IMG/VR virus record: IMGVR_UViG_3300034272_003143
Coordinates: 1-51,707 of that record
Source: a virus
Direction: 5' to 3' (one strand)
DNA length: 51,707 nucleotides
The notes under the pieces are model-generated. The model saw only the letters and a program-made list of their open reading frames with translations, had not been told where the DNA came from and did not search any database. Below are positions 2,008 to 41,809 of this stretch, one piece after another (within the stretch, counting starts at the first letter, position 1; each line of letters starts with the position of its first letter). A program made the position numbers and the translations under genes.

Positions 2008-2009
2008 CA

Positions 2010-2234: not shown

Positions 2235-2237
2235 CAA

Positions 2238-4070: not shown

Positions 4071-4086
4071 TAACGATCACATCACG

Positions 4087-4095
4087 GGGTAAAAC
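4087..4095 (+). promoter_or_regulatory. GGGTAAAAC element 1
   Basis: Seventeen bases after a fibre stop codon and 66 bases before the next ATG (4153). The leader also has short inverted repeats (CTTCA/TGAAG and CTTACGTAAG just before the ATG). Confidence 0.7.
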
Positions 4096-4152
4096 CACTT
4101 TACAACCAAGTCACTGAAACTTCAGATTGAAGCAGTTTTCACTTACGTAAGC

Positions 4153-16768: not shown

Positions 16769-19700
16769 ATGGCCGTACGGATCGTTCTCAAGCGTTCAAG
16801 CATCCCGAACAAGCGCCCTAACGCGGATCTACTGGATCCAGGCGAACTTGCTCTTAATACAAACGCTCTCACTCCAGGCCTGTTTTTCGAAGCGGACAAC
16901 AATTCGATTGTCAAGGTTGGTCCGACCGCGGTCGGTGAGAATCCCCCAACATTAACGCCCTCTCTCGGCGAAACTTACTACGACACCGCAAATAACAGTT
17001 TGAGTGTTGGGACAATTGATCCCGAGACCGCGGCTCAGGTGTGGAAAGAGGTTTCGGCCCCATACCTCGGAGGCACAAACGGATACGTGGTGTTTGTTGC
17101 GCCCGAATTCCCCACTTCTTCCGACGCCATCAAGAATGACGGTCAATCGAGTCCTTTCCGCAGCTTAAACCGCGCTGTCATCGAAATCGCAAAGCAGTCA
17201 ATTGCGACTCAGAACGAAAGCGACGCTGGGAAAAACAATCGATTCACCATTGTGGTCTCCAACGGGATCTGTCCCGTCTACAATGGTCCTGGCCTTCCCC
17301 TTCCAGTAGACACAAACGCGGACAATATCCCAGAATTCAATGTGGTTTTTGAGGGCAATTCTGCAAATTTGCCGGACGTTCTCAATCTACAACAATTCAA
17401 CCCAGAAACGGGTGGTCTTCTCGTGCCACGCGGAACGAGCATCATTGGCACAGACCTACGTAAAGTAGAACTCCGCCCCTCTTACGTACCGACATACAAA
17501 AACCCTTCAACTGGCCAAGGAAGCAACCAGCCCATTACGTCGATTCTGAAATGGACCGGAAATTCCTACGTCTCTAGTTTTACAGTACGAGACAAGAGAT
17601 CTCTTGTTAGCATCTCCGAGTTTACAGTAGGACCAGCTGGAGAAGGCGTATTTGTATCAAGTCGCCCGCACTGTTTCAACTTCAATGATCGAGTTTTCTT
17701 CAGTTTCGCGCCAGGAACCAATACTACACCTTTGTCGCCTAACAGCGCGAGTATTTTAAGCGGATATTATTTCGTCAAGCCGCTTGGTGTTGACACCTTT
17801 GAGCTTTCATTCACAGATCTCACTGGTGAACCAAACTATGTTGAGCGCTCACAACTTCCAGCTTCTTCACAAGGCCTTGGATATTTGGCTGAGTGCTATT
17901 GGCAACCATACTCCCACCACCGCCTGCGCTCGATTTACTCGGCTTCGAAAGCAGAACTCGACGAGTTTTACACCAAAGTTCAATTGGCCTTCCCCGAGTT
18001 TTTCCTTGGAAGCATCAATCAAGCTGAAGTTGTTAATCCAGGCGAAACTGAAATTGTAGGACCAGTCCCTAATTCGTTGCTCGATTCTTTCAAAGCAAAT
18101 ACGACAGACAACTCTTCCCCGTACGTGCAAAATGTCTCAGTTCGTTCTAACTATGGACTGTGTGGTTTAGAGAATGACGGTCTGATCACAAGTGGTTTCC
18201 GTTCGGCTTTGGGAATGGCGTTCACCGTGGCGTCAATTCAAAATGATCCCTCGGCGTATGAAATTTACACGACGGTTCAAGATCCGGCTACTTTGAAGCG
18301 AATTACTGATTGGTTTCCGCTTCAATATGCAACTTGGGCCACTCTTCCCTCCGCGCAACGTCCTGCAAATCAATCGCTGGTCCCAATTGAAGCGCAAATT
18401 GAATTGCTCAATGCGACGGACATCATTAACATCCGTTACTACTACTCGACTCTGAAATCCAATGATGGCAAGTCTTTCGGTATTCCCGACTTTGACAATG
18501 ACTTCCGTCACTTCGCAGTCAGGGCAACTAATAATGCGTATATCCAAGTAGAGACCGGGTGGACGATCGGCTGCGCCGTTGGCTTCTGGTCGACGTTTGG
18601 TGGAAGTGTAACGGCTGAAAACTGCGCAAGTAATTTTGGTTCGAATGCGCTTCGATCGGAAGGATTTACGGGAATTGGCGGCGTTAGCAGTTTTGCTGAT
18701 CCAGCGGACAGTGGATTTACATTCGGTGGCATTCGTATGCCTCAGATTGTTCTTCCAAGTGACACAACTCCAAAACTTACTTTAGAACTGGGAGCAAATA
18801 TCCTTTCAGTTATCAATCAAGCAAATGGTGTTCAGGAAATTACAATTGGCAGCGGATTTCTTCCAGTAAACATTTTGCCATTCTCCTTGGAGCCAGGGAC
18901 TGCAGTTTATTCGCAGCTTGGAAGCATTGAATTTCGGGCTTTCTTTGTGAAAGATAAAACTGTGAAGTTTTTGGAGAATGGCGAAGCCGTTTTGTACGTA
19001 CGCTCAATTGACTCAACATTCCCTCTAGGCAACTTGAGCACAATTCCTCAAATGAAGAATTGGACTCCTCCATTCATCAAAAGGTGGAATGACCCACGGT
19101 CAATTGGCGAAACTGCATACTCACTCATTCTTGAGAACTCGCAGGCAACCCACAGAAATCCACAGTTGGGCAGCGTTCTTCGTTTGAACCAAAACAATGC
19201 TCTTGCCTCATCTCTTCTTCGTCCGAATGTCCAATTTGACCCAGGTCCTAATGGCGGATGGGGCAAAGTATTTAGCGTGGCCATTGCAGATAGCGAAGTA
19301 AGTGGAATTGCTCCGCAATACAATGAAGTCTTGCTAAATCGAAATAGTAGCAATACTTATTTTGTAAGCCTTATTTTGTGCGATTCTGGGCGGCCGTGGA
19401 TTGAGGAAAAGAACACGGCACACGGTGAGTATGTAACTTACAACAACAGGAACTGGTACGCAGCATCAAACGATGAGTGGAGTTCAATCTACTACACTGC
19501 TGAAGGCGCAGTGACCGGGGGCATAAAATTGCCACCCACAAACTTTGACTCATCTTATGCTGTAACATACTGCATTGAAAATCAAGAACCTGTTGAAGAT
19601 GCTTATCAAGGGGAGTATGCACCAGATTCATTGATTTCACTGTATCCAAATGGCACTTATTTTAGGGGATCACAGCCAAATCGCGACAACTATGGATTTG

Positions 19701-22492
19701 ATTTCGTTGCCAACATCGATAACGGAACGCCTGACTTTGGCTTGTTGCGCCATAATGTGTCCACGGGTCTATCGTTTACTCCCGAGGAAGAAATCAAGCC
19801 AGAAACCACGGTAATTCGCCTCACATCTGTCGCCAACATTCCCAATCCGCTCACCAATTTTGTGGTGATGAGCATCACTGACGGAACCGCTGGTAGAAAG
19901 GAATTTGTTCAAGTACTTAAGGTAGACACCCCCAACCTTTCAATCACGGTCATTCGAGGAGTTTATGACACTCTACAGACTTCTTCTTGGCCTTTGAGCG
20001 GCACAGTGCTGTATCTTCAAAAAGCCGCTGATGAAGTGTTGGCCTCAGACTACGACTTTGATTGGTCACCTAGCAAATCAGCGATGATTCGCTTCCTCGA
20101 GGTGATGGGATACCCAATCGCGGACATTCAAAAAGTCCTGAGTCCCAAGGCCGCTTCTAGGCGCTCGCTCACCCTGAGTGGAATTTCTGCTTCGCCTAAA
20201 GACGGCTTTGCCTTGGCAACTGGGCCATGGCCATTTGAGTTTAGTACTTCATCTCAGACCGACGCTCTTTCACACGGCTTTCATAGTGTTGGCCGTCTTA
20301 ATTACGCAAAAGGCCTTCCAAAATACCTAAAGTCGGAAATCTCTACAAAACAATACTACGATTTCCTGTCTACTCAAATTTGGTCAGGCGCTGGTTCCAT
20401 CACCGGCGGCGACGAACTCGGAAACCTGCCCACATCGGGAGTTTACACTCAAACCGCCACTGGCCGACCCTACGGTACATACACCTCTTCAATCACTGAC
20501 TACAGCCGCACCGGCCCTACTTCTGGAAGCAGCGATGGTGGTGGTGGTGGTACCGGTGATGGTACCGTGCAAGCCGTATACACTGGTGAAGGTTTAGTTG
20601 GTGGGCCGATCACAATTCAGGGAACGATCTCCCTTCTTCCCCCTGTTGACGATAAAATCGGTGGTGTTAAAGCCGGCAAAAACATTCAGATCCAGACAGA
20701 CGGGACAATTGATGCGACTGGTGGAACCGTTGAGTCCATTGATTTCACAACAGGTCTGGCGGTGTTCTCTAATGACCAAAATGGGGGAACAATCACCACT
20801 TCAGGTACAGTAGCACTCAAAGTCGCCACTGACACTGAAATTGGTGGGATTATCCCGGGAATTGGTTTCGAGTTCGATCCTGATACCGGTGTAACCGATC
20901 TTAAAATCACATCGGATCTCAACGGGCAGAGCAAGGATACTGCCATCAGCCAGTTTGCCGCTAACATTCTAGACAAGAGCATTGAGGCCCTCACTGGTGC
21001 CAACGTTCTCGCTGGAACTTACGACGCTCGAGCTGGACAAATTGTCAGTGTCACTCCGATCGGCGCATCGAAGGGATTTGTGATCGGGCAGACTCCTCCG
21101 CCCCCATCTATCTCAATCGATAACTACTATTTGATCGTCACGGTTGGCGGCCCGAATCCCAAACCTCCCCTTCCCCCAGGTTTTGCGGGAGCAGGCGATT
21201 GGTTCATTTGCCAGGCGGAGGCGGGTGTCAATCCGGCGTGGATTCTGATTGATTTTGAGAATATTTCCGCGGCCGCTGACAACATCTCAGTGAGGCTGAT
21301 CCCAGGGATCGACACCGCGGGTAACGTTCAGTCGGCACTTGAAGCCATCGAGCTCCAAGTTCAGGACAGGATCGAATTTGCCGCAGTCGATCCCACCACA
21401 GGAAATGACGCTCTCAATGTTTCAATCAGCGCGCCAGTCCCAACCTCAAATGACGGAACAACACTGAGCCTGAGCCTCAAAACCGCAAGCGAAACTGATT
21501 GGGGAGCAACCAAGCTCACCTCAGACTTCACTGGAACTTCAAAGTCACTCGCACTGACCCAATTTGCTGCGAATCAGCTCAACACAAAAGTTGATGCCCT
21601 CACCGGATCTAACGTTTTGGCCGGTACCTACAGCGCGTTGAATGGTACTGTTCTTACAGTCACACCTGCTGGTTCTCCTTATCTGACGGTTGGACAGAAT
21701 TGTCCGCCTGCAGACCAGGTTCCGGACAACTACTACGTTCTTGTGACGAAATCAGGAACACAGGGTCCTCCCGGAGCCGTGGTTCCTTCGACCGGAATTC
21801 AGTCCAGCGACTGGTTTATCGTACAGCGAGATGGCGCCACGCCAACTTGGATAACGATTGACTTTGAGAATGACCGTACAGTCACGGCAAGTCAAGTCAT
21901 TCTCCAACCTTCCATTCCTGGCCTCAACTCAGGAAATGTTCAAGGGGCACTTCAGGAGCTCGAAACGAAAGCCGAACAGTCAATCTACGATATCGTTTCT
22001 TCGACCTCGAACACAAGCGGAATTCGCGTTCAAAACTCTGCCGAGACTCCACAAGGTCGAACAACGACTCTGAGCCTACTTCCTGCCACTGGTTCGGACT
22101 TGGGAGGAGTCTTTGTTATTCCCGGCACAGGCCTCAATCTCTCGCCATCAAATGGAGCTTTGGGTCTGTCTATTGCGACAACAAATCTACTTGGTGGCAT
22201 CAAAGTTGGTGGTGGCCTTGATATAGCGGCCGACGGAACCCTCTCAGTTGCTGGTTTGGGCGGAATTCGCGTTCTTGACGATCTGTCTTCTAAGTTTGAT
22301 GGTATCACAACCCAATTCACTTTGTCTTTGGTTGGAACCCCCTTCACCCCAATCGCTTCTCAATACGTTCTTATCGTGGTCGGTGGTGTTGTCCAAGGAA
22401 CACCCACAAACTACTCTGTTACCGGTACCACAATTACCTTTACATCTCCCCCTCCTTCAGGTGCCAGCTTCTACGGCATCACCCTCGGGTAA
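16769..22492 (+). CDS. Giant modular tail fibre / virion structural protein
   Basis: 1907 residues. N-terminal docking type (LLDPGELALNTNALTPGLFF) shared with 22542-24035. Residues about 105-560 resemble a right-handed beta-helix structural protein of cyanophages (SPFRSLNRAVIEIAKQS; LLVPRGTSIIGTDLRKVELR). A long unassigned beta-rich region follows to about 1240, then a Gly-rich linker (DGGGGGTGDG), repeats of the type IGGVKAGKNIQIQTDGTI, and two copies of the GTYDA module (about 1405-1500 and 1610-1700). The tip ends VLIVVGGVVQGTPTNYSV to ASFYGITLG, the same C-terminal module as in four other genes here. Its stop codon lies inside a GGGTAAAAC element. A central baseplate-attached fibre is plausible. 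Confidence 0.88.
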   Translation: MAVRIVLKRSSIPNKRPNADLLDPGELALNTNALTPGLFFEADNNSIVKVGPTAVGENPPTLTPSLGETYYDTANNSLSVGTIDPETAAQVWKEVSAPYLGGTNGYVVFVAPEFPTSSDAIKNDGQSSPFRSLNRAVIEIAKQSIATQNESDAGKNNRFTIVVSNGICPVYNGPGLPLPVDTNADNIPEFNVVFEGNSANLPDVLNLQQFNPETGGLLVPRGTSIIGTDLRKVELRPSYVPTYKNPSTGQGSNQPITSILKWTGNSYVSSFTVRDKRSLVSISEFTVGPAGEGVFVSSRPHCFNFNDRVFFSFAPGTNTTPLSPNSASILSGYYFVKPLGVDTFELSFTDLTGEPNYVERSQLPASSQGLGYLAECYWQPYSHHRLRSIYSASKAELDEFYTKVQLAFPEFFLGSINQAEVVNPGETEIVGPVPNSLLDSFKANTTDNSSPYVQNVSVRSNYGLCGLENDGLITSGFRSALGMAFTVASIQNDPSAYEIYTTVQDPATLKRITDWFPLQYATWATLPSAQRPANQSLVPIEAQIELLNATDIINIRYYYSTLKSNDGKSFGIPDFDNDFRHFAVRATNNAYIQVETGWTIGCAVGFWSTFGGSVTAENCASNFGSNALRSEGFTGIGGVSSFADPADSGFTFGGIRMPQIVLPSDTTPKLTLELGANILSVINQANGVQEITIGSGFLPVNILPFSLEPGTAVYSQLGSIEFRAFFVKDKTVKFLENGEAVLYVRSIDSTFPLGNLSTIPQMKNWTPPFIKRWNDPRSIGETAYSLILENSQATHRNPQLGSVLRLNQNNALASSLLRPNVQFDPGPNGGWGKVFSVAIADSEVSGIAPQYNEVLLNRNSSNTYFVSLILCDSGRPWIEEKNTAHGEYVTYNNRNWYAASNDEWSSIYYTAEGAVTGGIKLPPTNFDSSYAVTYCIENQEPVEDAYQGEYAPDSLISLYPNGTYFRGSQPNRDNYGFDFVANIDNGTPDFGLLRHNVSTGLSFTPEEEIKPETTVIRLTSVANIPNPLTNFVVMSITDGTAGRKEFVQVLKVDTPNLSITVIRGVYDTLQTSSWPLSGTVLYLQKAADEVLASDYDFDWSPSKSAMIRFLEVMGYPIADIQKVLSPKAASRRSLTLSGISASPKDGFALATGPWPFEFSTSSQTDALSHGFHSVGRLNYAKGLPKYLKSEISTKQYYDFLSTQIWSGAGSITGGDELGNLPTSGVYTQTATGRPYGTYTSSITDYSRTGPTSGSSDGGGGGTGDGTVQAVYTGEGLVGGPITIQGTISLLPPVDDKIGGVKAGKNIQIQTDGTIDATGGTVESIDFTTGLAVFSNDQNGGTITTSGTVALKVATDTEIGGIIPGIGFEFDPDTGVTDLKITSDLNGQSKDTAISQFAANILDKSIEALTGANVLAGTYDARAGQIVSVTPIGASKGFVIGQTPPPPSISIDNYYLIVTVGGPNPKPPLPPGFAGAGDWFICQAEAGVNPAWILIDFENISAAADNISVRLIPGIDTAGNVQSALEAIELQVQDRIEFAAVDPTTGNDALNVSISAPVPTSNDGTTLSLSLKTASETDWGATKLTSDFTGTSKSLALTQFAANQLNTKVDALTGSNVLAGTYSALNGTVLTVTPAGSPYLTVGQNCPPADQVPDNYYVLVTKSGTQGPPGAVVPSTGIQSSDWFIVQRDGATPTWITIDFENDRTVTASQVILQPSIPGLNSGNVQGALQELETKAEQSIYDIVSSTSNTSGIRVQNSAETPQGRTTTLSLLPATGSDLGGVFVIPGTGLNLSPSNGALGLSIATTNLLGGIKVGGGLDIAADGTLSVAGLGGIRVLDDLSSKFDGITTQFTLSLVGTPFTPIASQYVLIVVGGVVQGTPTNYSVTGTTITFTSPPPSGASFYGITLG

Positions 22493-22495
22493 AAC
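22487..22495 (+). promoter_or_regulatory. GGGTAAAAC element 6
   Basis: Contains the TAA stop of the giant fibre gene; next ATG 55 bases on. Confidence 0.7.
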
Positions 22496-22541
22496 TAGTT
22501 CAAATGTGATCTCCCTTCGGGGTTAGCGAATAAGTAATTCC

Positions 22542-24035
22542 ATGGCCGTATCTGCTACCCAGATTCAACTCCTTCGGTCGTCAATCCCTAACTGCCGCCC
22601 TGACCCGACCCAACTGCTGCCGGGTCAGCCTGCTGTAAACACGGATGCCGCCCAACCCGGACTTTTCTTCAAGGACACGAACGGTGGACTTGTCAAAGCT
22701 GGTCCGTGCACAGTAAGTGCTGTCGCTCCAAATGTTTCCCCAGCAGGATTTCCTGGTAATACTAAGGGAGAATTTTGGTTTAACGTTAATGAGCAACGTC
22801 TCTACGTTTGGACTGGAGCGGCGTGGGTTCGTTCCGACCCGTCTGAGATTGGCTTCACCAAAGTCATCATTCAAACCACTCCCCCTGATTTGGACATCTA
22901 TCCAAACGGTGCACTGTGGTGGAACGACTACAACGGGGAGATGTACGTTCTGTACGAAGACCCGAACAATCGCCAGTGGGTGCAAGTTGGCGCAGGTGGC
23001 TCAGCAGGTAGCGGTGCAGTAATCATCTCCGATCAGCAGCCTGACCCAGCTATCACGGCCGCTGGAACACTTTGGTGGAATGACTCCACCGGATCCTTGT
23101 TCGTTCTCTACAACGATGGTGGACCTACACGGCTTTGGATCCAAATCGCCGGCGCTGGCGCAATCAATGCCGGACAAGGCGGGTCCGTGTCGAAGATCGA
23201 CACGGGAACTGGTCTCACAACCCTAAATGGTCAACCAATCACCACTCAAGGCACACTTATCCTTAAGCCAGCCTCTGCCAACGAAATTGGTGGTGTGAAG
23301 CCAGGGATCAATGTCACAATCGATCCGGACGGAACAATTAATATGGCTGGCCCCGGAACGGGCACAGTATCTCAAATTCAGACTGGCCCCGGTATCACCG
23401 GCGGTCCAATCACCACAACTGGCACCATCGGTCTTGCCTCAGCCACTTCAAGTCAAATCGGTGGAGTGAAGCCTGGGGCTGGCACTGGGGTCACGGGCGG
23501 CGGCGCTCTCTTCATCGAGGCTGCAACACCTTCTTCGATTGGTGGAGTGATCGTTGGTACGGGCCTGAACGTCTCGTCAAGCGGTGTATTGGCCGTTGAC
23601 CCCGTTCCTCCTGGTTTCCTCCCCGCTGGAACCGTCCAGTGGTATGCCGGCCAAACTGCACCAGCTGGCTGGTTCTATTGCAATGGCGCAGTATTTGACA
23701 CGGCGACATACCCAGCACTTTATGCCGCTATTGGGCGGATTTATACGGGCATTGCCATTCCTTCAACGCAGTTCCAAGTCCCAGATCTTCGTGGTCAGTT
23801 CCTCCGTGGTTGGGACAACCGTTCTTCCGGAGGTACAGATAGCGGACGAGTTTTTGGTTCGTACCAGAATGACGAGTTCAAGAGCCACACTCACACCTAC
23901 ACGGACAACCTAGCCCCAGGTTTTGGTCTGACATTCACAGGTAACTCTGCAGCTCAAGACAATACAACCGGTGCAACTGGCGGCAGTGAGACCCGTCCGA
24001 AAAACTGCGCAATGCTTCCAATCATCAAAGTCTGA
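22542..24035 (+). CDS. Tail fibre with docking domain, LWWND modules and collar tip
   Basis: 497 residues. N-terminus [20 protein letters not shown] matches the docking type of 16769-22492. Then two LWWND modules ([34 protein letters not shown]), three IGGVKPG-type repeats, and a tail-collar domain ([40 protein letters not shown]) ending [18 protein letters not shown]. It opens the unit that also contains the next four fibres. The collar fold forms trimers in T4 short tail fibres; the receptor is unknown. Confidence 0.88.
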
Positions 24036-24037
24036 CC

Positions 24038-25609
24038 ATGCTTCCAGATATCGTCTCTGCAGCGTACGTTTATAGTACGAATCAATCAGCTGTTCAGGTC
24101 ACTTATTCCGACTCTACATCCACAGTTGTCTATCCAAACCAATTTGAAAATCCTCGCACTCAGCAGCTTAACTCGTGGATTCGGGGCGGCGGGCAAATTT
24201 CTGCTTATGTCCCGCCTCCAACTCCAGTAGCGCAACCTCCCGCTTTTATCTCGCTTGCTATGGGGGCAAGTCAAGCGGGAGTCGGATACAATGACGCTCT
24301 CAATGAGTGGGTTGCTCTGACGGCATTCAATTTGGAGACTGATGGAACTTCAGTTGATCTAATTCCTAACCGCGCTTATGAAATCAGCCTCGCTATTGTT
24401 GCGAGTGACTACACTGGGACTGGCGCCGAAACTTTTGGCGTGGTGAACACTGCCAGCGGTCAGCCCATTTACAGTGATAATGCGGGTGCTGTCGTCACGG
24501 TGCCTTCCAGTTCAGGCGACAATTCTTCTGGCACACCAGTTAACACCTTTCTTTTCACCCCAACAAGCGCAATCTCCATCAGCGTGCGCTGTCTGAGCTC
24601 TACGGGTGAATCTTTGACAATCGTTGAGGGAGCTTCCACTTTCACTATCTGTGAAATTCTGAACGGTGGAATTTATGCCTCACAAAAAGGACCTCAGGGA
24701 CCAGCGGGTCCGATTGGTCCTGCCGGACCTGAAGGACCAGCCGGACCAGTTGGTCCCACAGGTTCGCAAGGATCGCAAGGCGTGCCAGGTCCCCAAGGTG
24801 TTCAAGGGCCGGCCGGTCAGCCTGGAACTGGTTTCTACTTCATGGGGACTGTTGCAACCCCAGGCGACCTTCCCACTTCAGCTGGTCAGGGAGACGCTTA
24901 TACAGTTGTGTCAACCAATACTCTTTGGATTTATAACGGCACTGTTTGGACCAATGCCGGCGTTGTTCAAGGACCGCAAGGTGTTGAGGGAGTTCAAGGC
25001 CCTGCGGGGCCCGCTGGAGCGACTGGCCCTGCTGGTCCCCAAGGGCCGAGCGGTTCCCCGGGATCCGCGGGACCGCAAGGATTGACCGGTCCTCAAGGTC
25101 CAATTGGACCGATGGGTCCCACTGGAGCGACAGGACCTCAGGGACCTGTTGGAGCCGCTGGACCCCAAGGTGCAACGGGACCTCAGGGGCCCGCGGGCCC
25201 TCCGGGTTCCGTCGCCAACGTCATCTCCGGATTGTGGACGGGCAACCTCAGCCAAGCGGGTGGAACGCCGGTGACGGTTTATACCGCGACTCTCCCGCCT
25301 GGAGCGACTGGTTTCAGCATCTTTGGTTCTCTTTGGTGGACATCGAATGATGGGTCATCATATGGTACCATGTATCCCGGTATTCAAATAACAAACTCCT
25401 CAAATGGTTACAACCAAGTCGTGTATGGCAGTCAAGCCAACTTCAGGGTCATTAACTATATGAACTACCCAACGACTGGGGTGACTATCGGTGGGAACTC
25501 TGGTCTCCCAGCTGCAGGACAATACGTAATTCAGTTTACTTATGCGGGTAACTACTACAATACCTCTCAAGCCCTGGGTAACTTTCAATACATGGTGACA
25601 TATTGGTAA
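24038..25609 (+). CDS. Collagen-like tail fibre
   Basis: 523 residues, starting two bases after the previous stop. The first 60 residues ([18 protein letters not shown]) resemble the starts of 26423-27358 and 27360-28271, so this is a third docking type. A jelly-roll-like region follows, then collagen triplets (about 219-265), the insert [20 protein letters not shown] to LWIYNGTVW, a second collagen stretch (about 310-392) and a C1q-like end ([19 protein letters not shown] to FQYMVTYW). Trimeric rod with adhesive tip. The last base of its stop codon is the first base of the next ATG. Confidence 0.88.
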
Positions 25610-26421: not shown

Positions 26422-26422
26422 C

Positions 26423-27358: not shown

Positions 27359-27359
27359 T

Positions 27360-28271: not shown

Positions 28272-28280
28272 GGGTAAAAC
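28272..28280 (+). promoter_or_regulatory. GGGTAAAAC element 7
   Basis: Directly after a TGA stop and 41 bases before ATG 28313. Confidence 0.7.
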
Positions 28281-28312
28281 TTACTTAACTCGGCCATCTC
28301 TTAGCCTACAGC

Positions 28313-29410: not shown

Positions 29411-29411
29411 T

Positions 29412-31189: not shown

Positions 31190-31190
31190 A

Positions 31191-31682
31191 ATGAATGTAG
31201 CCGTTTATCCTAGCAATGAGTCCGTCACACCCTTTATTCGTGTGATGTCAGGCGGTCTCGATGATGTCGAAACTGCCGCAGAAAAATACCTGACACCCCT
31301 TGGTATTTCATATCAGATTGTTGAGTCTTCAACAATCACTCCTTCACCTTACATCGCCAACTCACAGACCGTGACTTTGGGTGTTGATGGAGCCCCTCCC
31401 ACTTACGGTTGGGATTTTGCGGCTGCTCAACAAGCCGCGACTGCCTACAACTCAGAATACTGGCAAAAGCAATACAATCAAGGTATTTTGGGCCTGTCTA
31501 TCACTGCTCCTTACCAGCTTTCTCTGGCAATAGCAACTCCTGAAGCAGAAAGAACTGCCGAGCAATTGGCTGCAGTAGAATTCTTAACTGGAATCAATAC
31601 TCTTCAGACTGAAGTTCAAGACAGCATTGATGCTGCCACCACAGGTGAAGAGATCATTCAAATCCTGAGCCAACTCGGGTAA
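31191..31682 (+). CDS. Possible fibre assembly chaperone or accessory protein
   Basis: 163 residues from ATG 31191, one base after the previous stop. It lacks the glycine-rich repeats of its neighbours: the N-terminal half is a small mixed fold (AVYPSNESVTPFIRVMSGG), and the C-terminal half is helical (AAAQQAATAYNSEYWQKQYN; AERTAEQLAAVEFLTGINTL). A compact helical protein behind a set of fibre genes is where tail-fibre assembly proteins often lie. No family match is recognised. Its stop codon TAA lies inside a GGGTAAAAC element. Confidence 0.6.
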   Translation: MNVAVYPSNESVTPFIRVMSGGLDDVETAAEKYLTPLGISYQIVESSTITPSPYIANSQTVTLGVDGAPPTYGWDFAAAQQAATAYNSEYWQKQYNQGILGLSITAPYQLSLAIATPEAERTAEQLAAVEFLTGINTLQTEVQDSIDAATTGEEIIQILSQLG

Positions 31683-31685
31683 AAC
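31677..31685 (+). promoter_or_regulatory. GGGTAAAAC element 8
   Basis: Contains the TAA stop of the small gene before it; next ATG 29 bases on. Confidence 0.7.
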
Positions 31686-31705
31686 TGTATTAACTGGTTG
31701 AAGAG

Positions 31706-34246
31706 ATGACAAACGCTTTTACTAAAGCCCAATTCATGGCTGCGCCATCTGGCGCTGTAGGACCGGTCCCCATCGGTGCTGTAAAAGCGGGGACCGGCGT
31801 CGCAATTTCCGCCGACGGAACGATCAGTCTCACTGGGGGTGGCGGAACTGTCTCCGACATTGTCGCAACAAATGGTCTTCAGGGTGGTGGACAGGGACCT
31901 CAAGTGTTCTTGGGCCTTCTTCCTCCGACTTCAACCACTATCGGTGGCGTCAGGACCGTTGACGGATCTGGTGTTTCAATTGACAGCGACGGTGTAATTC
32001 GAGCGGTCAACAGTGTCCAAGTTACTGGTGGACTTGGCATCGTTGTCACAGCATTTGGAGGAGGCTCGTTCAACGTTGCTCTGCGACCAAGTGGTAGCGC
32101 AAGCAATCAATTAGGCGGCGTCTACGTTCCCACAGCATCATTTTCAGGGCTTTCTCTAGCCTCAGATGGCCAATTGAAGTTGTCTCCACCCGTTGCTAGC
32201 GGCATTGGTGGTGTAAAAGCTGGAGTTGGTTGTACAATTGCTGCAGATGGCACAATCAGTGCCACAGGAAGTGGCGGAACGATTGTGGGTGTCCTTCCCG
32301 GAGTAGGTTTGGTTGGTGGTGGCACAAGTGGAACTGTCACATTGTCCGCAGCGATTGCAAGTGCAGGTTCCCTTGGAAGCATCAAAGTTGGGACGAATTT
32401 GTCCGTTGACCCTGACGGGACTCTCAACGCTCTTGGAGGAACCCTACAAAGTGTCACAACTGCTGGCGCAACCACAAATAAGCTTCTTACTTTTAACTCA
32501 GACCCTGCTGGAACAGTAAAGACCACTCTCGATTATCAGGGGCTGACTGGTCTTGTTAATAACGTTCCGACCATCGGCTTTGAAACGGCCTCCGGTCGTC
32601 TTCGCATTTTTAGTCAGACCGGCCCAGGCACTCTCGTTCTCTCGATGGGCGCCAACGGCATTGACGGTGTGGTGACCACACCTGCCTCAGGGCAACGCCT
32701 GTTTCTGACAGGAGACGCGGGGGTTACACTCAGCACAGGTGCTACTGAGCAGTGTGTAATTTCTACTATTGGCGTCAACATCCCAAATCGATTGACTGCA
32801 TCGGGATTCTCGTATCCCACGGCTGACGGTATTGCCGGACAAGTACTGACAACAAATGGATCAAAAAACCTAACATTTACAAGTGTTCTGCCGGCGTCAG
32901 GCGGAACAATGACGGGCAACATCACATTTGCTAGTTCCCAAACTTTCCCCGCCGCCACACTTTTAACCACAGGGGTAGTTAAACCTGATGGAACTTCAAT
33001 AAGTGTTGACAGTGCTGGGACTATTTCTGCTGTGACCACAGTTGGCTCTCTACAGCAAGTCACAAGTGTTGGAGCGACGACGAATAACAGTATCGCGGTT
33101 CTTCTGAATTCTGCTGCAGTTGGACTTTCCGTAGCTAATACAGCTTCAACGAGTTTATTACAATTAAGCCCTGACAAACTAACTATCGACAACGGTAGTG
33201 GGGATCCTGGCATCAACATCGTTGGATTTGGAACTCCCAGCGCAACTGTAACGGGAGGTGGATTCATCAGTGTTGGCTTAGGTGGTGGTGCCGCCTATGT
33301 AGAAAAAATAAGGCTCAACGGCACCACGGGCGCAGCCACGGTCGGTCAAATCATTGCTGGAGGGATCACGTATCCCACTACTGACGGCGCCGCGGGTCAA
33401 GTTCTAACCACAAACGGGTCAGGAGTTGTAACATTCCAAAACGCGGGAGCCTCCAACGCCCTACTTCTGACAGGCGGCACAATGACCGGCAATATCGTAT
33501 TTGCCGGCACTCAGACCTTCCCCACCGCTACGACTCTGGCTCTCGGTGTTGTTCGACCCGACGGAACGACGATTACCATCAATGGTTCTGGCGTGATCAG
33601 TGCAGCTGGTGGTGCTGCTTCACTGCCACTCACGGGCGGCACAATGACTGGCAACATCGTGTTCGCTGGGACTCAAACATTCGCAGGAACACTGCCACTC
33701 ACGGGCGGTACGATGACTGGCGATATTGTGTTCTCTGGGACTCAAACATTTGCCGGAACATTACCACTTTCTGGTGGCACAATGACCGGCGCCATCACAT
33801 TCGCTGCTGGTCAGACTTTCCCCGGAACAATCTCCGCTACACTACTTGATGTTACTGGGGACATTGTTTACGCCTCAGCTGCCAACACACCGGCGTCTTT
33901 GCCTATTGGCACAGCGGGTTCTATTTTAGCTGTTAACGGCGGCCTTCCGGCTTGGAGAACCGCAACACAACTTGGTCTGCTGACTACTGCCTCTGCAGCC
34001 ACTACGTATGCTCCACTAAACAGCCCAACTCTAACTGGTGCCGTTGTCATTAACTCTGGAGGAAGTGCTGGTTCCAACGCTTTGACTGTTAGTGGCGGCT
34101 CCCTCGTTCTTTCAACCTCATTTACTCCCGCCACTAGCGGAGATCCTGGAAGTACGGGCGAAATCACTTGGGATGGCGGCTATTTATACATCTGCACAGC
34201 TCCAAACACTTGGGGACGCATTGCAATTGACACGACTCCATTCTGA
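31706..34246 (+). CDS. Long repetitive tail fibre with GGTMTGNI repeats
   Basis: 846 residues. N-terminus (FTKAQFMAAPSGAVGPVPIG, then AVKAGTGVAISADGTI) is a docking type shared with 37117 and 38820. Five IGGV/GGVKAG-type repeats follow, then YPTADGIAGQVLTTNGS segments and five or six copies of a 23-residue repeat (LPLTGGTMTGNIVFAGTQTF) typical of phage fibre shafts. The C-terminus (GDPGSTGEITWDGGYLYICT, ending WGRIAIDTTPF) is a common terminal module. Ser/Thr/Gly-rich beta structure throughout; a long trimeric shaft is expected. It opens a unit with 34253 and 37117. Confidence 0.87.
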   Translation: MTNAFTKAQFMAAPSGAVGPVPIGAVKAGTGVAISADGTISLTGGGGTVSDIVATNGLQGGGQGPQVFLGLLPPTSTTIGGVRTVDGSGVSIDSDGVIRAVNSVQVTGGLGIVVTAFGGGSFNVALRPSGSASNQLGGVYVPTASFSGLSLASDGQLKLSPPVASGIGGVKAGVGCTIAADGTISATGSGGTIVGVLPGVGLVGGGTSGTVTLSAAIASAGSLGSIKVGTNLSVDPDGTLNALGGTLQSVTTAGATTNKLLTFNSDPAGTVKTTLDYQGLTGLVNNVPTIGFETASGRLRIFSQTGPGTLVLSMGANGIDGVVTTPASGQRLFLTGDAGVTLSTGATEQCVISTIGVNIPNRLTASGFSYPTADGIAGQVLTTNGSKNLTFTSVLPASGGTMTGNITFASSQTFPAATLLTTGVVKPDGTSISVDSAGTISAVTTVGSLQQVTSVGATTNNSIAVLLNSAAVGLSVANTASTSLLQLSPDKLTIDNGSGDPGINIVGFGTPSATVTGGGFISVGLGGGAAYVEKIRLNGTTGAATVGQIIAGGITYPTTDGAAGQVLTTNGSGVVTFQNAGASNALLLTGGTMTGNIVFAGTQTFPTATTLALGVVRPDGTTITINGSGVISAAGGAASLPLTGGTMTGNIVFAGTQTFAGTLPLTGGTMTGDIVFSGTQTFAGTLPLSGGTMTGAITFAAGQTFPGTISATLLDVTGDIVYASAANTPASLPIGTAGSILAVNGGLPAWRTATQLGLLTTASAATTYAPLNSPTLTGAVVINSGGSAGSNALTVSGGSLVLSTSFTPATSGDPGSTGEITWDGGYLYICTAPNTWGRIAIDTTPF
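33623..33829 (+). repeat. 69-base tandem repeat in a fibre shaft
   Basis: Three units of 69 bases starting at 33623, 33692 and 33761, each coding LPL(T/S)GGTMTG plus (N/D/A)I.F..(T/Q)QTF.GT. The first two are nearly identical in bases, which points to recent duplication; more diverged single copies lie at about 32900 and 33469. Confidence 0.8.
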
Positions 34247-34252
34247 TAACTA

Positions 34253-37117
34253 ATGGCTCTCCTTAATTTTCCAGACAACCCCCTAAACGGACAGCTGTAT
34301 CCGAATCCATGCCCTGAAGGGGTCACTCAATACAAATGGGAGTCAAGTACCGGAATGTGGCGTATTGTCGGGGTGGCCACAGGAGTCACCCCCGGACGAT
34401 ACGGTGACAGTATCACAGTCGGACAATTTACGGTTGATGTAGCCGGTCGGGTAACTGATGCGGCGAACATCCCCATTCGTGATGCCACAGTTTTTCTACC
34501 AGGCTTAGTCCAGCTTAACGACACTACAACAAGCATCAGCTCCACGCAGGCATTAACGGCAAAAGCTGGTAAATCACTTCAAGATCAAATTGGTAACCTC
34601 GCAAATTGCACGGTTCAGGACCGTACAAATGTTGTTGCCGCTCTAAACGACCTTCAAGCTCAGACATCTCAACTTCAAACAGACGCTCTGATCTGGTGTG
34701 GATACTACAATGCCGCTGAAGGTGACATTTCTTATGTGAGTATCACTGGTCAAAGGCTAGGATACCAAATTGGACAGGAGCTTCCAGATCCTGGACCAAA
34801 AAATGGTGGGGACTTTTTTATAGTCACTGTTTCTGGTAATCCTTATATTGCCGGAGACTACAACGCACCAGATGCCAATATTGAGGTAGGAAACTGGATC
34901 GTCTCAGAAGGTTCTCGTTGGTCTGAGGTAAATGCGGCGAGTGAACTTCAAGCGAAAGACATTAAGTATATTCCATCGGCTCCGCTGACGGCGACAAATG
35001 TCCAAAACGCCCTCTTCCAGGTAACCCAACTCTTCAGAACTCCGATTGGTGGCGCATCAATCTCTGAAACAAAACCGAATAATCCGTATCCTGGCCAACT
35101 TTGGTGGGATTCGGATGATGGACTGTTCTACATCTTCTATCAAGACCTGAATGGGTCTCAATGGGTTGAAACTGGCGGTGGCGGGTCCAATCTTCTTGGT
35201 GGTGGAAGTGGCGGAATCTATCTCCTCGACACCGGAGTTGGACTCACAGGCGGTCCTATCACAACTCGTGGAGAAATCAGTCTCGTCCCCGCTTTTCTCG
35301 ATCCGGCCGATATCGGCAATAGCACGATCGGCGGTGTTGTTCCTGGCATCGGACTCAACTATGAGAACGGCACCGGCGTCTTCAGCGTTCGTTTAACTAG
35401 CGATCCCCAAGGAACAGATGAAACTGTAGCCCTCAACCAAGTCGGCGCAAACATCCTGAATAACAAGATCGCCGCTCTCACAGGAAGCAATATCTTGGCG
35501 GGAACTTATGATGCACGTCAGGGTGTGGTGGTTTACGCTACGCCGGCTGGTGTATCGAAGGGACTCGTTGTTGGTCAAAATCTGCCCGCACCTTCGGCGG
35601 CTCTAGATAACTACTACGTCATCGTAACAGTCGGTGGTGATCAGGGACCGAATGGCCCTCAAAAGGCCGGTGCAGGAGACTGGTACATCTGCCAATCCGA
35701 TCAGGTGCCCGCTGTATGGTTCCTGATTGATTTCGAAAATATCGGCGCTCAAGCCGAGAACGTCTCAGTAACAGAAATCCCTGGAATCGAATTCGTTTCG
35801 AACGTTCAACGTGCGCTTGAGGCGATCGAGCTTCAAGTTCAAGATCGAATTGAGTTCGTTAAAACTACCAGTGGGGGAATTCAGGTTGATGTTACCGCAC
35901 CGGGTTTAACCTCATATGATGGTACGACCCTGAGTATTGGACTCGACAACGCGACTCTCGCGAATCGCGGTATTGTCCAACTCACAAATGACGTCACTGG
36001 CAATTCCGAAGATCTCGCCATAACCCAGTTGGCGGTGAGTAGGCTCAACACAAAAGTTGATGCACTTACTGGTGCAAACATTCTGGCTGGAACGTACAAC
36101 TCCAACACGGGAACTGTTTCCGCGGTCACACCCGCTGGAACAGCTGCTGGTTTGGTTCCCGGTCAACAGGCTCCTCCAGCTGGACGAGTTCCTGATAACT
36201 ACTATCTCATCGTTATTGTCGGTGGTGGATTTGGACCTCCCGGCGCCGTAATTCCGGCCACTGGCGTTCAGTCAGGAGACTGGTTCATTGTTGAAAATGA
36301 GGGTGGAGTCGCGGCGTGGATCACAATTGACTACGAAAACCGCGTCGTTGATGCAACGCAAGTCAATGTTTCCCCTATTCCCGGCCTCACTGCGACAAAT
36401 GCCCAAACTGCACTTGAGCAAATTGAGGCACAAGTCGATCAGTGCATCACTGACATCAACAGCAGCAATAATGGAATCAGCATCGCCACTCTTCCCAATA
36501 ACGCCACATTTGGGAACAATGTTGGACTGACCCTCAACCCCGCAAATTCCACAGACATCGGTGGTGTTTTTGTCACGCCAAACAATGGCCTGGTTCTCGC
36601 CCCTGCTGGAGGATTAGCCGCGGCTATTGCATCGAACAGCGTTCTTGGCTCCGTTAAGATTGGCACCGGAATCAGTGTGGATTTGACTGGAACGATTTCG
36701 GTCGATATCCCTGATATTGGCGTTTCAAAAATTTCGTCAAGTCCAGGAGTCAGCGTTGAACCTACAACTGGGGTCGGAGACGTCACAATTGGCCTCACAC
36801 CGGCGACCGCTGGTCAAATCGGTGGGGTTAAGGTGGGAAGCGGAATCAGCGTCACTGCTGATGGCACAATTTCAACCGTTCCCGCCGCCCCTCCTCAAAA
36901 ACTCGACAGCTTGAAGACACAATTTGACGGCTCACGTGTCTCCTACACTTTGGCAATCGGCGGAACAGCGGTGACACCGGCAAACGACGCCGCCGTATTA
37001 ATTGTTCTTGGAGGTGTGGTTCAAACCGCTGGTGATGCCTACTCAGTAGCAGGAAGCACCATCACTTTCACAGGCCCTCCCGCTGTAAACACGGAGTTCT
37101 ACGGAGTTCTCTTCTGA
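34253..37117 (+). CDS. Long modular tail fibre with three GTYDA-type modules
   Basis: 954 residues. N-terminus (NFPDNPLNGQLYPNPCPEG, then QYKWESSTGMWRIV) is the DGQ-YP docking type. Next come a GRYGDSITVGQFTVDVAGRV segment, an early diverged module (WCGYYNAAEGDISYVSITG, about 150-225), one LWWDSDDGLFYIFYQD segment, and two full GTYDA modules (about 415-500 and 610-690) separated by IQVDVTAPGLTSYDGTTLSI. IGGV repeats follow, and the C-terminal module (FDGSRVSYTLAIGGTAV, VLIVLGGVVQTAG, FYGVLF) closes it. It therefore combines a docking domain from one set with internal modules seen in 16769 and 37117. Confidence 0.87.
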   Translation: MALLNFPDNPLNGQLYPNPCPEGVTQYKWESSTGMWRIVGVATGVTPGRYGDSITVGQFTVDVAGRVTDAANIPIRDATVFLPGLVQLNDTTTSISSTQALTAKAGKSLQDQIGNLANCTVQDRTNVVAALNDLQAQTSQLQTDALIWCGYYNAAEGDISYVSITGQRLGYQIGQELPDPGPKNGGDFFIVTVSGNPYIAGDYNAPDANIEVGNWIVSEGSRWSEVNAASELQAKDIKYIPSAPLTATNVQNALFQVTQLFRTPIGGASISETKPNNPYPGQLWWDSDDGLFYIFYQDLNGSQWVETGGGGSNLLGGGSGGIYLLDTGVGLTGGPITTRGEISLVPAFLDPADIGNSTIGGVVPGIGLNYENGTGVFSVRLTSDPQGTDETVALNQVGANILNNKIAALTGSNILAGTYDARQGVVVYATPAGVSKGLVVGQNLPAPSAALDNYYVIVTVGGDQGPNGPQKAGAGDWYICQSDQVPAVWFLIDFENIGAQAENVSVTEIPGIEFVSNVQRALEAIELQVQDRIEFVKTTSGGIQVDVTAPGLTSYDGTTLSIGLDNATLANRGIVQLTNDVTGNSEDLAITQLAVSRLNTKVDALTGANILAGTYNSNTGTVSAVTPAGTAAGLVPGQQAPPAGRVPDNYYLIVIVGGGFGPPGAVIPATGVQSGDWFIVENEGGVAAWITIDYENRVVDATQVNVSPIPGLTATNAQTALEQIEAQVDQCITDINSSNNGISIATLPNNATFGNNVGLTLNPANSTDIGGVFVTPNNGLVLAPAGGLAAAIASNSVLGSVKIGTGISVDLTGTISVDIPDIGVSKISSSPGVSVEPTTGVGDVTIGLTPATAGQIGGVKVGSGISVTADGTISTVPAAPPQKLDSLKTQFDGSRVSYTLAIGGTAVTPANDAAVLIVLGGVVQTAGDAYSVAGSTITFTGPPAVNTEFYGVLF

Positions 37118-38775
37118 TGGCTTTAACAAGAGCTCAGTACATGGATCCACCCGGAGGTCCGGGTTCTATTGGAGCTATTCGGGAAGGTTCGTACATTACC
37201 ATAACTGCTGATGGCGTTATCAGCTGGCCCGGTGCTCCTGCGACAACTGTTTCCATTTCGCCTGTTTCCGGAATTTCTGCTTCTAACGTCCAAGAAGCGA
37301 TTTCTCAACTTGAAGCGCAGATTCAAAGTTTGAGCGGAAGCACCATTCTGGCAGGCTTGTACAACGCTAATCTGGGCGTCCTGAGTTATGCCACCGCAGC
37401 TGGATCCTCAGCGGGATTTTCTGTTGGTCAAAACCTACCTGCTCCATCGCCAGCAATTGACAACTACTATGTCATTGTAACGATAGGCGGAAACATCGGG
37501 CCGAGCTCTTCTCAACCGTCTTCTCCTGGGGATTGGTGGATTTGTGAATCCAATGGGCCCCAGTCAGTCTGGTTCCTAATCGCGTTTGACGATCGGTACA
37601 TTCCAGCTCAGAATGTGCTAGTTTCGACCATTCCTGGTATCCCTCTAGCCTCAAACGCCCAAGAAGCGCTTACTCAACTCGAGGCGCAAACGAATGATCG
37701 AGTTCAAAAAGCCGTTAACTCCGGGTCGGGAACGGGTGTAAGCCTAAATGTTTCGGCGGCTCAGCCAGTCTACGAGGGGACCACACTTACACTCAATGTG
37801 GATCCCGCCTCTCTTTCCGGTGCGGGTACGGTTCAACTCACAAATTCTGTTGCGGGGCAGTCAGAATCACTTGCCATTACGCAGAAAGCAGGAAACGATC
37901 TTAGCAATAGAATTGATCAGCTGTCTGGACAGCAAGTTCTTGCGGGGACCTACAATTGTTTGACTGGAACACTGGTCTATGTAACGCCTTCCGCTCAGGG
38001 GAAGGGTTTTGTGGTGGGCTCAAACTGTCCAAATCCTTCAGTCAGTATCGACAACTATTACGTCATCGTTGTCACCGGTGGATCGCAAAGTCCCCCAGGA
38101 TTGGCACCCCCGGCAAACCCGTACAAACCAGGCGACTGGTTCATTTGCGAGGGAACAACCTCTTCCGTCTGGGTTCCCATCGCGTTTGACAATACCACAA
38201 CAAGTGCGGCAAATGTGTCCCTTAATCCGGCCGTCAATGGAAGAACGAATGTTCAAGACAGCAACCAGGACTTGAACGCTCGTCTGATTCAGTGCGTCTC
38301 CAACCTTGTCAGTGATGTTGGTCTGTCAATTTCTGTGAGATCGTCGACATCCGATGGCAGAACGCTTGTTGCGAACCTGAATCCTTCAAACCCGAGCAAC
38401 CTTGGTGGTGTCATCGTTCCTGGAGGAAACGGCCTTCGTGTCGACGGTTCTGGTGTGCTGGATCTCACAGCGGCAACGTCGATTCAAATTGGGGGCGTAA
38501 AAATTGGCAAAGGCATCACAGTCGATCAAACAGGACTGATCACGGTTAATCCGCCAAGAGTGATTGACCAAATTAGTTTTAATGGCACCTCATCCTCATT
38601 CGCACTAACAACTGCAGGAGCACCTCTTACAAATCCACTTCCAAGTGACCTTCTAATTTTCGTAGGTGGTGTAGCCCAACCGCCAAACTCATACACGCTC
38701 TCTAACAACTTGATAACTTTCTCGGAGATACCTCCGGCTGGCGCGACATTCTACGGGATTTTGCTGTACTCGTGA
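37117..38775 (+). CDS. Modular tail fibre with two GTYDA-type modules
   Basis: 552 residues, TGATG coupled. N-terminus (LTRAQYMDPPGGPGSIGAIR) is the third docking type. GTYDA modules lie at about 80-160 (LAGLYNANLGVLSYATAAG) and 270-355 (LAGTYNCLTGTLVYVTPSAQ), each closing with NYYVIV..GG and GDW.IC. IGGVKIGKGITVDQTG follows, then the shared C-terminal module (QISFNGTSSSFALTTAG, LLIFVGGVAQPPNSYTL, ATFYGILLYS). Internal sections between the two modules are diverged, so copies are old enough to be distinguished. It closes a three-gene unit. Confidence 0.87.
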   Translation: MALTRAQYMDPPGGPGSIGAIREGSYITITADGVISWPGAPATTVSISPVSGISASNVQEAISQLEAQIQSLSGSTILAGLYNANLGVLSYATAAGSSAGFSVGQNLPAPSPAIDNYYVIVTIGGNIGPSSSQPSSPGDWWICESNGPQSVWFLIAFDDRYIPAQNVLVSTIPGIPLASNAQEALTQLEAQTNDRVQKAVNSGSGTGVSLNVSAAQPVYEGTTLTLNVDPASLSGAGTVQLTNSVAGQSESLAITQKAGNDLSNRIDQLSGQQVLAGTYNCLTGTLVYVTPSAQGKGFVVGSNCPNPSVSIDNYYVIVVTGGSQSPPGLAPPANPYKPGDWFICEGTTSSVWVPIAFDNTTTSAANVSLNPAVNGRTNVQDSNQDLNARLIQCVSNLVSDVGLSISVRSSTSDGRTLVANLNPSNPSNLGGVIVPGGNGLRVDGSGVLDLTAATSIQIGGVKIGKGITVDQTGLITVNPPRVIDQISFNGTSSSFALTTAGAPLTNPLPSDLLIFVGGVAQPPNSYTLSNNLITFSEIPPAGATFYGILLYS

Positions 38776-38779
38776 CAAA

Positions 38780-38788
38780 GGGTAAAAC
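38780..38788 (+). promoter_or_regulatory. GGGTAAAAC element 9
   Basis: Five bases after a stop and 40 bases before ATG 38820. Confidence 0.7.
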
Positions 38789-38819
38789 TGTTTCAATCAG
38801 GTCTTTTCAATAGCTGAAT

Positions 38820-39281
38820 ATGGCTCTCAATAAAGCTCAGCTGATGGAAGTCCCCGGAGGTCCCGGGGTTGTTGGTGCCATTAAAGCCGGAACTAACATT
38901 TCCATTACGCCAGATGGCACAATTTCGGCCAGCGCCGGTGGACTGCCCATCGGTACAGTAACTTCAGTGGGCGTCTCCGGTGGTTCAACTGGTTTGGTCT
39001 TTTCAGACAGTCCAGTGACCCAAACTGGGACCATGACCATGAGTGGCGTGCTTGGTGTCGCAAACGGCGGAACTGGCGCAACTTCTCAAGCAGCCGCTGC
39101 TGCAGCTATTCTCCCTAACCAAAGTGGGCAGTCAGGGAAATTTCTTCGGACAAATGGGTCAGCTACTCAATGGGTCAATGCTATCACCGGAGTTACAGCT
39201 GGGTCTGGACTTGCAGGGGGCGGACTCTCAGGCGGTGTAACTCTTAGCATCGATATCAGTTCTCTCCCCGCTCTCCCCTAA
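38820..39281 (+). CDS. Short fibre segment with AQ-M-PGGPG docking domain
   Basis: 153 residues. Docking start (LNKAQLMEVPGGPGVVGAIK, AGTNISITPDGTISA) matches 31706 and 37117, then a NGGTGATSQAAAAAAILPNQ segment with GKFLRTNGSATQWVN, which is common in phage fibres. It stops there with LAGGGLSGGVTLSIDISSLP and lacks any tip. The next gene begins on its last stop base (TAATG), so it may act as the base to which the following adhesin attaches. Confidence 0.8.
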   Translation: MALNKAQLMEVPGGPGVVGAIKAGTNISITPDGTISASAGGLPIGTVTSVGVSGGSTGLVFSDSPVTQTGTMTMSGVLGVANGGTGATSQAAAAAAILPNQSGQSGKFLRTNGSATQWVNAITGVTAGSGLAGGGLSGGVTLSIDISSLPALP

Positions 39282-40369
39282 TGGCAATTCAAGGCAGCGA
39301 TCTGTTCATCGTTAGTCAAGGTGGGCAGAATTATCAACTCACCGCCTCCAGTTTGGCAGCAAGAATCCAAACAATGAATGGAGGAAATCTATTCATTACT
39401 TCTAGGGGAGGCACTTCATCGAAAGTAACTGCTACTGCATTTAAGGAGTACCTTCTTGGAAATGCGAGTAATGTTTTAGGCACAGATACTTATCTCATCG
39501 CAAGGGCTGGTGCAAACTACCAGGTAACAGCTGCAGAGATTAAGGCGTATACCAATATCGACGCCGAAACTGTCGTCATTAGCAGCAACGTAAATAACGT
39601 TAACGTTTCCACACTGTTCACAACATGGGGTCAGAATCGAAATAAGAGACTTGTAATCAACTCCGGCGTAACCGTTGGCTCCCTTAGTTCCGGAACCGCT
39701 TCACTTACCATCCCGGCTGGTGCTGGTGGTGGCTCATTCCAGGTGGAAAACCGAGGCTCCATCATTGGCGCCGGCGGAACTGCCAACAGTGGAGTAGGCG
39801 GGACGGCGATGGTGGTGCAAAACGCCATTGCCATGTTTAACTACGGCACCATCGGTGGTGGTGGTGGCGGCGGTGGAGTCGGTGGTGTAGGCGGTGGTGG
39901 TTCATACACCACGACAGAGGGTCTTGGCGCAGGTAACCAGGTAAGTCAGATTCAGAGTAACTGCGATAACTCCTGTAATACAAAGTTCGGCGCTGGCGCA
40001 TTTTGCCGTAGTAACTGTGTTGGTGTCCCAGGACCGTTCCTCCTTCTGATTTGTAACGACTGTGCTAGGACCACAACGGTGTTCACCGGTGGTGGTGCTG
40101 GTGGTTCAGGTGGCCGTGGAGCCGGATCTGATGGGACAAATCAGACGGGCCAAGCTGGCGCGGCTGGTGGCATAAACGCTGGTGCCGGTGGTACCGGTGG
40201 ATCAGGTGGAGCGATTGGCGTGAACGGTGATACGGGCGGCACAGGCGCAAACGGAAACAATGGCGCAGGAGCTGCTGGTGCTGGTGGCGGCGCCGCTGGA
40301 TTCTACGTTGTTGGTGGTGCAAACGTGAACTTCGTCGTTGCTGGAAATCTACTCGGTCGCGCTGGATAG
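39281..40369 (+). CDS. Glycine-rich distal adhesin with cysteine-rich insert
   Basis: 362 residues. The N-terminus holds three copies of a short repeat (DLFIVSQGGQNYQLTASSLA; NLFITSRGGTSSKVTATAFK; TYLIARAGANYQVTAAEIKA), about 45 residues apart. A beta region follows, then glycine-rich sequence (GGGGGGGGVGGVGGGGS and many GAGGTGGSGG runs) ending AAGFYVVGGANVNFVVAG and LLGRAG. Gly-rich ends of this kind form polyglycine-II sandwiches in T-even-like gp38 adhesins that contact the receptor. Between residues about 228 and 265 sits an insert with six Cys as C-x3-C, C-x3-C and C-x2-C. Likely a receptor-binding tip. Confidence 0.83.
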   Translation: MAIQGSDLFIVSQGGQNYQLTASSLAARIQTMNGGNLFITSRGGTSSKVTATAFKEYLLGNASNVLGTDTYLIARAGANYQVTAAEIKAYTNIDAETVVISSNVNNVNVSTLFTTWGQNRNKRLVINSGVTVGSLSSGTASLTIPAGAGGGSFQVENRGSIIGAGGTANSGVGGTAMVVQNAIAMFNYGTIGGGGGGGGVGGVGGGGSYTTTEGLGAGNQVSQIQSNCDNSCNTKFGAGAFCRSNCVGVPGPFLLLICNDCARTTTVFTGGGAGGSGGRGAGSDGTNQTGQAGAAGGINAGAGGTGGSGGAIGVNGDTGGTGANGNNGAGAAGAGGGAAGFYVVGGANVNFVVAGNLLGRAG

Positions 40370-41771: not shown

Positions 41772-41793
41772 TGTGGTATACTGGTTCTGTAGA

Positions 41794-41803
41794 GTTGTTA
41801 CCC
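41794..41803 (-). promoter_or_regulatory. Degenerate element GGGTAACAAC on the minus strand
   Basis: Reads GGGTAACAAC on the minus strand; its first base is 32 bases before the HNH-like gene's ATG, the same distance as many plus-strand copies. It differs from the common form by one inserted base, so it may be chance. Confidence 0.35.
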
Positions 41804-41809
41804 ACGTAT

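Follow-up and report, generated by a model that had tools for sequence, protein, structure and literature searches.

Introduction

Myoviruses that encode many different fibres have been described. The Klebsiella jumbo phage phiKp24 has fourteen fibres in a branched arrangement, for which depolymerase beta-helices and docking domains of the T4 gp10 type are described (PMC9700779), and CBA120 has four tailspikes (PMC7506556). Fibres can also move between phages together with a chaperone. In the Alteromonas phages V22 (gp26/gp27) and A5 (gp8/gp9), fibre and chaperone were jointly transferred between distant phages (PMC7289586; PMC10579305), and V22 gp27, which carries DUF4376, is an experimentally shown fibre chaperone (PMC7289586). 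In the Synechococcus phage S-CBP42 (Autographiviridae), the small gene gp13 overlaps the end of gp12, which encodes a tail fibre; no second pair of this kind was seen. The Synechococcus myovirus S-CBWM1 (Aokuangvirus, NC_048106) has a fibre locus of about six genes (71.8-82.7 kb).

Here we analyse a 51.7-kb virus fragment from IMG/VR, an incomplete contig of 51,707 nucleotides that we refer to as the window. Its fibre array was read in an initial annotation as a combinatorial adhesin system. Comparison with metagenomic relatives points instead to an ordered operon in which a few tips vary between phages.

Results

Affiliation of the phage and surroundings of the array

The TerL protein of the window is 55% identical over 92% to that of S-CBWM1, and the two share the gene order TerL, PhoH, kinase, fibre genes, Pol III epsilon, ThyX, exonuclease, tape measure. 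The phage is thus a relative of S-CBWM1, and the TerL identity and the common order make a cyanobacterial host probable. The array had no DNA match among isolated phages. psbA, sought as evidence of the host, is present in S-CBWM1 and was not seen in the metagenomic fragments. The S-CBWM1 match to psbA (111309-112992) falls into two pieces with about 780 bases between them, suggesting an intron or insertion.

A kinase-like protein encoded immediately upstream of the array (14918-16555) has the RIO-like kinase of S-CBWM1 as its syntenic counterpart. On the right the array is bordered by a minus-strand gene (41022-41855) without a Pfam or PHROG match, and relatives have minus-strand genes of similar size at the matching place. 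Genes for 2OG-Fe(II) oxygenases or DUF6445 proteins are grouped where fibre arrays end on the right, one relative having as many as three (window 45001-45606; L055 14780-16644; L056 13793-14404; L044 14171-15335). Because these phages have collagen-like fibres, it is conceivable that the products modify fibre residues. In agreement with the initial annotation, the scanned ORFs of the window, itself a fragment, contained no reverse transcriptase, invertase or integrase; nor did they show, near the fibres of this incomplete contig, a reverse transcriptase or site-specific invertase that would point to programmed fibre variation by a DGR or an invertible segment.

The fibre array

Positions 16769-40369 hold 15 ORFs, located where the initial annotation had placed them and nearly all abutting or overlapping. 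They make up one compact operon in which 14 genes are of fibre type, as judged by Pfam, PHROGs or shared modules, and one small gene (31191-31682) is not. The latter had been listed at 31170 (its conserved start is 31191) and counted as the fifteenth fibre. Three more fibres do lie at the left edge (1-5820), as noted, but the array contributes 14 rather than 15 genes to the estimated total of about seventeen. The view that several kinds of fibre are encoded is supported, the genes belonging to a paralogous modular family. Parts detected in the array are the collar (PF07484), collagen (PF01391), the LLPGE, DGQ-YP and AQxM-PGGPG bases, GDW shaft modules and FYG tips. All genes described in this section are on the plus strand and are named by their start.

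In the left cluster, the first fibre (1-2007), whose 5' end is off the contig, has Pfam matches to collagen and collar and ends in the supposed C1q-like tip, a weak match (E 0.22). The second (2238-4070) combines an LLPGE base with collagen, and the third (4153-5820) an LLPGE base with a GDW module and a collar tip. The cluster is larger in two relatives, studied as oriented contigs (G001 29901-55179, from L051/L071/L078; G006 17622-35219, from L053/L073), where it takes up about 18-25 kb upstream of the terminase and has five to seven LLPGE-base genes. A complete genome of the group may therefore devote about 45 kb to fibres.

The first gene of the array, 16769 (16769-22492, 1907 aa), has an LLPGE base, a tail-fibre domain (phrog_529), two GDW modules and an FYG tip. 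Its orthologue in S-CBWM1 is gp81, which carries a baseplate wedge annotation; in relatives the product of 16769 measures 1500-3164 aa, depending on the GDW copy number. It is followed by 22542 (22542-24035; LLPGE base, shaft, collar tip) and by the collagen-like fibre 24038 (24038-25609) with a hypervariable tip (25211-25609). The collar-domain protein 25603 (25603-26421), which has no base domain, overlaps the end of 24038 and is kept in all relatives covering that place. The paralogues 26423 (26423-27358) and 27360 (27360-28271), 41% identical, each join a VFVL-D base to a collar, that of 26423 resembling T4 gp12 (PDB 1ocy, E 4e-8). A peptide-pattern scan for relatives of 26423 returned nothing, the patterns probably being too strict; orthologues do exist in relatives.

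Three genes with a DGQ base and a shaft come next: 28313 (28313-29410), with two conserved FYG tips (mean 74%), 29412 (29412-30176), with one FYG tip, and 30176 (30176-31189), a candidate for the main receptor-binding fibre, in which the conserved base and shaft (aa 1-200) carry a hypervariable beta-sandwich tip (aa ~201-337). The small gene 31191 (31191-31682, 163 aa) is a candidate for the cognate chaperone of this fibre. Further downstream, the long fibre 31706 (31706-34246) contains 69-bp repeat units, with conserved ends and a variable middle, and 34253 (34253-37117; 311-1146 aa in relatives) has a DGQ base, three GDW modules and an FYG tip that is exchanged. Gene 37117 (37117-38775; AQxM-PGGPG base, GDW modules, FYG tip) has a full-length match in G019 only. 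The array ends with a short PGGPG-base fibre, 38820 (38820-39281), and the glycine-rich tip protein 39281 (39281-40369; phrog_10745). Behind it stands a gene for a small protein, 40418 (40418-40879), found only in G019 (98%), possibly a second accessory protein or chaperone.

The claim that genes with different bases share modules was confirmed: 49 gene pairs matched at E<=1e-4, versus 0 in five local shuffles and 4 with reversed sequences, the last probably due to collagen. Examples are 16769 aa 1339-1904 versus 34253 aa 333-952 (46%) and 34253 aa 402-954 versus 37117 aa 65-550 (37%). Identities between paralogues (about 30-46%) are below most of those between orthologues (45-98%), so that most module mixing appears to predate the group. 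End-to-end stacking, in which an FYG tip docks on the base of the next gene's product, fits several neighbours, but the kind of base in the next gene is unchanged in relatives where 34253 is without its FYG tip, and we leave it as speculation.

Order and descent of the array genes

For comparison we took relatives from IMG/VR and extended those contigs that were informative; they represent only about eight distinct lineages, mutually related. From 16769, or the first gene on the contig, to 34253, gene order is unchanged in eight contigs (G007, G009, G011, G017, G018, G019, G020 and G021), and the best match of each gene is its positional counterpart. The DGQ bases of 28313, 29412, 30176 and 34253 form one clade for each position (4 position changes in the tree, the minimum being 4). 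The FYG tips come close to this, with 9 changes against a minimum of 7 and a shuffled mean of 30.5. A single clade was not rejected for the tips of 29412 (p=0.41) and 16769 (p=0.315), but it was for those of 34253 (AU p=0.016, about 0.05 after correction for the three positions tested). The GDW shaft modules of 16769 and 34253 interleave in their tree. Six such modules were detected in the 16769 of G011 and G018, in which 34253 is only 311 aa long; the window has two, and G007 and G021 have none.

Clear cross-position traffic is confined to the 34253 tip, which has two origins, and to the GDW modules. With bases in one clade per position and tips nearly so, the mixing of bases and tips between genes would be mostly ancient, older than the group. 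Combinatorial shuffling accordingly describes the deep past of the array and a limited traffic of modules, but not the present-day array, the order and positional orthology of which are held from 16769 to 34253 in diverged relatives.

Present variation is local, affecting the tips of 24038, 30176 and 34253, the copy number of shaft modules, and the genes downstream of 34253. When the first 60 residues were compared with the last 100 across lineages, conservation fell by 49 points in 34253 (77 vs 28%), 46 in 24038 (78 vs 32%) and 37 in 30176 (75 vs 38%); the gap was less marked in 16769 (27 points) and smaller in the other genes. The N-terminal part of 24038 is 72-88% identical in all relatives and its C-terminal 135 aa 14-90%. 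The window shares this tip at 90% identity with G017, distantly related and the one other contig with a near-identical copy, yet at 26% with G019. In 31706 the repeat units vary, and in 34253 a shaft unit near 36784-36889. The genes after 34253 are mostly dissimilar between lineages beyond their common AQxM-PGGPG base. Ordinary recombination, which had been proposed as the shuffling force, is supported in the form of homologous recombination, and most of the change is same-position replacement between phages.

A tip and its accessory gene

The window and G019 share a block from 28240, a gene boundary, to about 41800, mostly at 85-99% DNA identity. Its main break (30640-31640, plus strand, with DNA breakpoints near either coordinate) covers the 30176 tip and most of 31191, at about 30-70% identity between flanks of 88-98%, and the two versions differ in length by about 10 aa; inside it, the DNA for the C-terminal part of 31191 shows moderate divergence as well (60-72%). 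At the protein level, identity is 98% in the 30176 base, 27-29% in its tip, 58% in 31191 and 98% in the next base. The 31191 of G019 is nearest to that of G021 (65%) and not to that of the window, and the same holds for its tip (42% to G021, 29% to the window). The best reading is that homologous recombination between phages exchanged the tip of 30176 and 31191 as one cassette. The tip had been called unique, which is true inside the window, but the same hypervariable domain stands at that place in every relative covering it. The predicted fold of the tip had no significant match in the PDB, Pam1 tailspike and TNF-like folds being weak matches.

31191 begins 2 bases past the end of 30176, a neighbourhood kept in all relatives that hold it. 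Its distances between lineages follow those of the 30176 tip (rho 0.91, Mantel p 0.0005) more closely than those of the base (0.52), and with the outlier G017 dropped the values are 0.82 and 0.12. The N-terminal half tracks the tip (partial correlation 0.87 given the base) and the C-terminal half tracks the backbone (0.61 with the base given the tip). With about eight kindred lineages the test is small, and these numbers are guides rather than proofs.

31191 had no Pfam (DUF4376 and chaperones included), PHROG or isolate match and no homologues in bacterial genomes. Its fold model (pLDDT 87), in which a small alpha/beta part at the N-terminus is followed by long helices at the C-terminus, gave no significant match in the PDB. 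Among predicted viral structures the sole match with E <0.001 is a 160-aa protein of S-CBP42 (BFVD entry G8EYC3; E 8e-6, TM 0.66), which is probably gp13, the only one of the listed S-CBP42 genes that fits this length (160 aa). A profile comparison of 31191 with gp13 is suggestive but weak (E 0.0012, probability 19%), and DUF4376 proteins occur lower in the fold list as weak matches (E 7e-3). Together with the published cases of fibre and chaperone transfer, these matches lead us to take 31191 as the putative cognate chaperone, or a transient cap, of the 30176 fibre. Profile comparison linked 31191 significantly neither with S-CBWM1 gp77 nor with 40418 or the right-end proteins described next.

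The right-end fibres with a PGGPG base have, in relatives, His-rich or glycine-rich tips and are followed by a 231-267 aa protein. Two types of this protein occur, whose C-terminal 150 aa are homologous (prob 99.7) and whose N-termini are unlike, and the type matches the class of the preceding tip. The pattern of 31191 is repeated here by proteins that share no detectable similarity with it. In the window their place is occupied by 40418, which is unrelated to them by profile and shows no profile similarity to 31191. We suggest tentatively that such accessory proteins are two-part, with a swappable N-terminal half for each tip class and a constant, phage-specific C-terminal half, such that a tip plus half a chaperone might be the natural unit of host-range exchange.

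Discussion

We consider it likely that the array is an ordered fibre operon inherited by position, the tips of which are exchanged between phages, with 30176 as main receptor-binding fibre and 31191 as its cognate chaperone. A few modules would have been duplicated and recombined before the split of the phage group, and the genes inherited position by position since then, probably because each has a fixed structural place. Co-infecting phages would recombine homologously at the same position, replacing three tips (those of 24038, 30176 and 34253) as well as the genes downstream of 34253 and thereby changing host range, and repeat copy number would alter shaft length. 31191 may fold or cap 30176, with its N-terminal half facing the tip; that half and the tip would change jointly because they must fit.

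One alternative is that neighbouring genes continually reshuffle bases and tips into new fibres. Paralogues do mix bases and tips, and the two origins of the 34253 tip and the interleaved GDW modules are in its favour, but the position-specific clades, the order kept in all relatives and the lower identity of paralogues than of most orthologues largely contradict it, and we regard it as improbable. Fast diversifying selection in place, without exchange, would account for tips that are hypervariable in all lineages. It is very improbable as the source of the difference between the window and G019, in which both the tip and 31191 of G019 are nearer to G021 and a sharply bounded, diverged cassette of different length sits between well-conserved flanks.

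The role of 31191 can be read in another way: instead of a chaperone it would be an adhesin or a cap at the tip, remaining attached to the 30176 fibre in the virion and making the contact with the receptor. Divergence and exchange in step with the tip agree with this role just as well, and Mu Tfa is reported to stay bound to its own fibre (PMC10579305). The conserved helical C-terminal half and the likeness to the post-fibre protein of S-CBP42 resemble assembly proteins and, although not decisive, make an adhesin rather unlikely. It is quite possible, if short of probable, that most array genes encode baseplate or structural parts and that host recognition is confined to a few variable tips, which is compatible with the ordered operon that we favour. 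The conserved ends of 28313, 31706 and the collar genes, and the orthology of 16769 with a protein annotated as baseplate wedge, agree with this; the S-CBWM1 annotation is itself unproven, however, and collar tips are typical of short tail fibres.

What was seen as a jumble of seventeen adhesins becomes a map of conserved, probably structural positions with a few tips varying between phages, which are therefore likely host-range determinants. Metagenomic relatives can in this way locate receptor-binding ends without a cultured host, and they single out a specific pair of fibre and accessory protein, 30176 and 31191.

The fibre locus of S-CBWM1 occupies the same slot as the array, with the same flanking genes and orthologues of the first gene, but a BNR-repeat protein replaces the set from 24038 to 34253, and S-CBWM1 is without a sequence homologue of 31191. 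As in phiKp24 and CBA120, one myovirus encodes many different fibres, here presumably carried on the virion. No Pfam match to T4 gp10-like branching domains was found in the array proteins, and no beta-helical depolymerase tips were detected, the tips being collar, FYG, glycine-rich or beta-sandwich. S-CBP42 gp12/gp13 is similar in having a small gene at the end of a fibre gene, the product of which is the best structural match to 31191, at 15% sequence identity. The likeness to V22 and A5 is that 31191 is a small gene directly downstream of the putative receptor-binding fibre and matched to the fibre tip, as seen in the co-divergence of the whole protein and of its N-terminal half and in the G019 cassette. 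The differences are that Pfam gives no DUF4376 in 31191 and that what is exchanged, within an operon of many fibres, would be a tip and chiefly one half of the accessory gene. Transfer of a fibre with its chaperone (V22/A5) and phages with many fibres (phiKp24) were thus already known; new is a large, ordered fibre operon that appears to exchange few tips, one of them with half its accessory protein.
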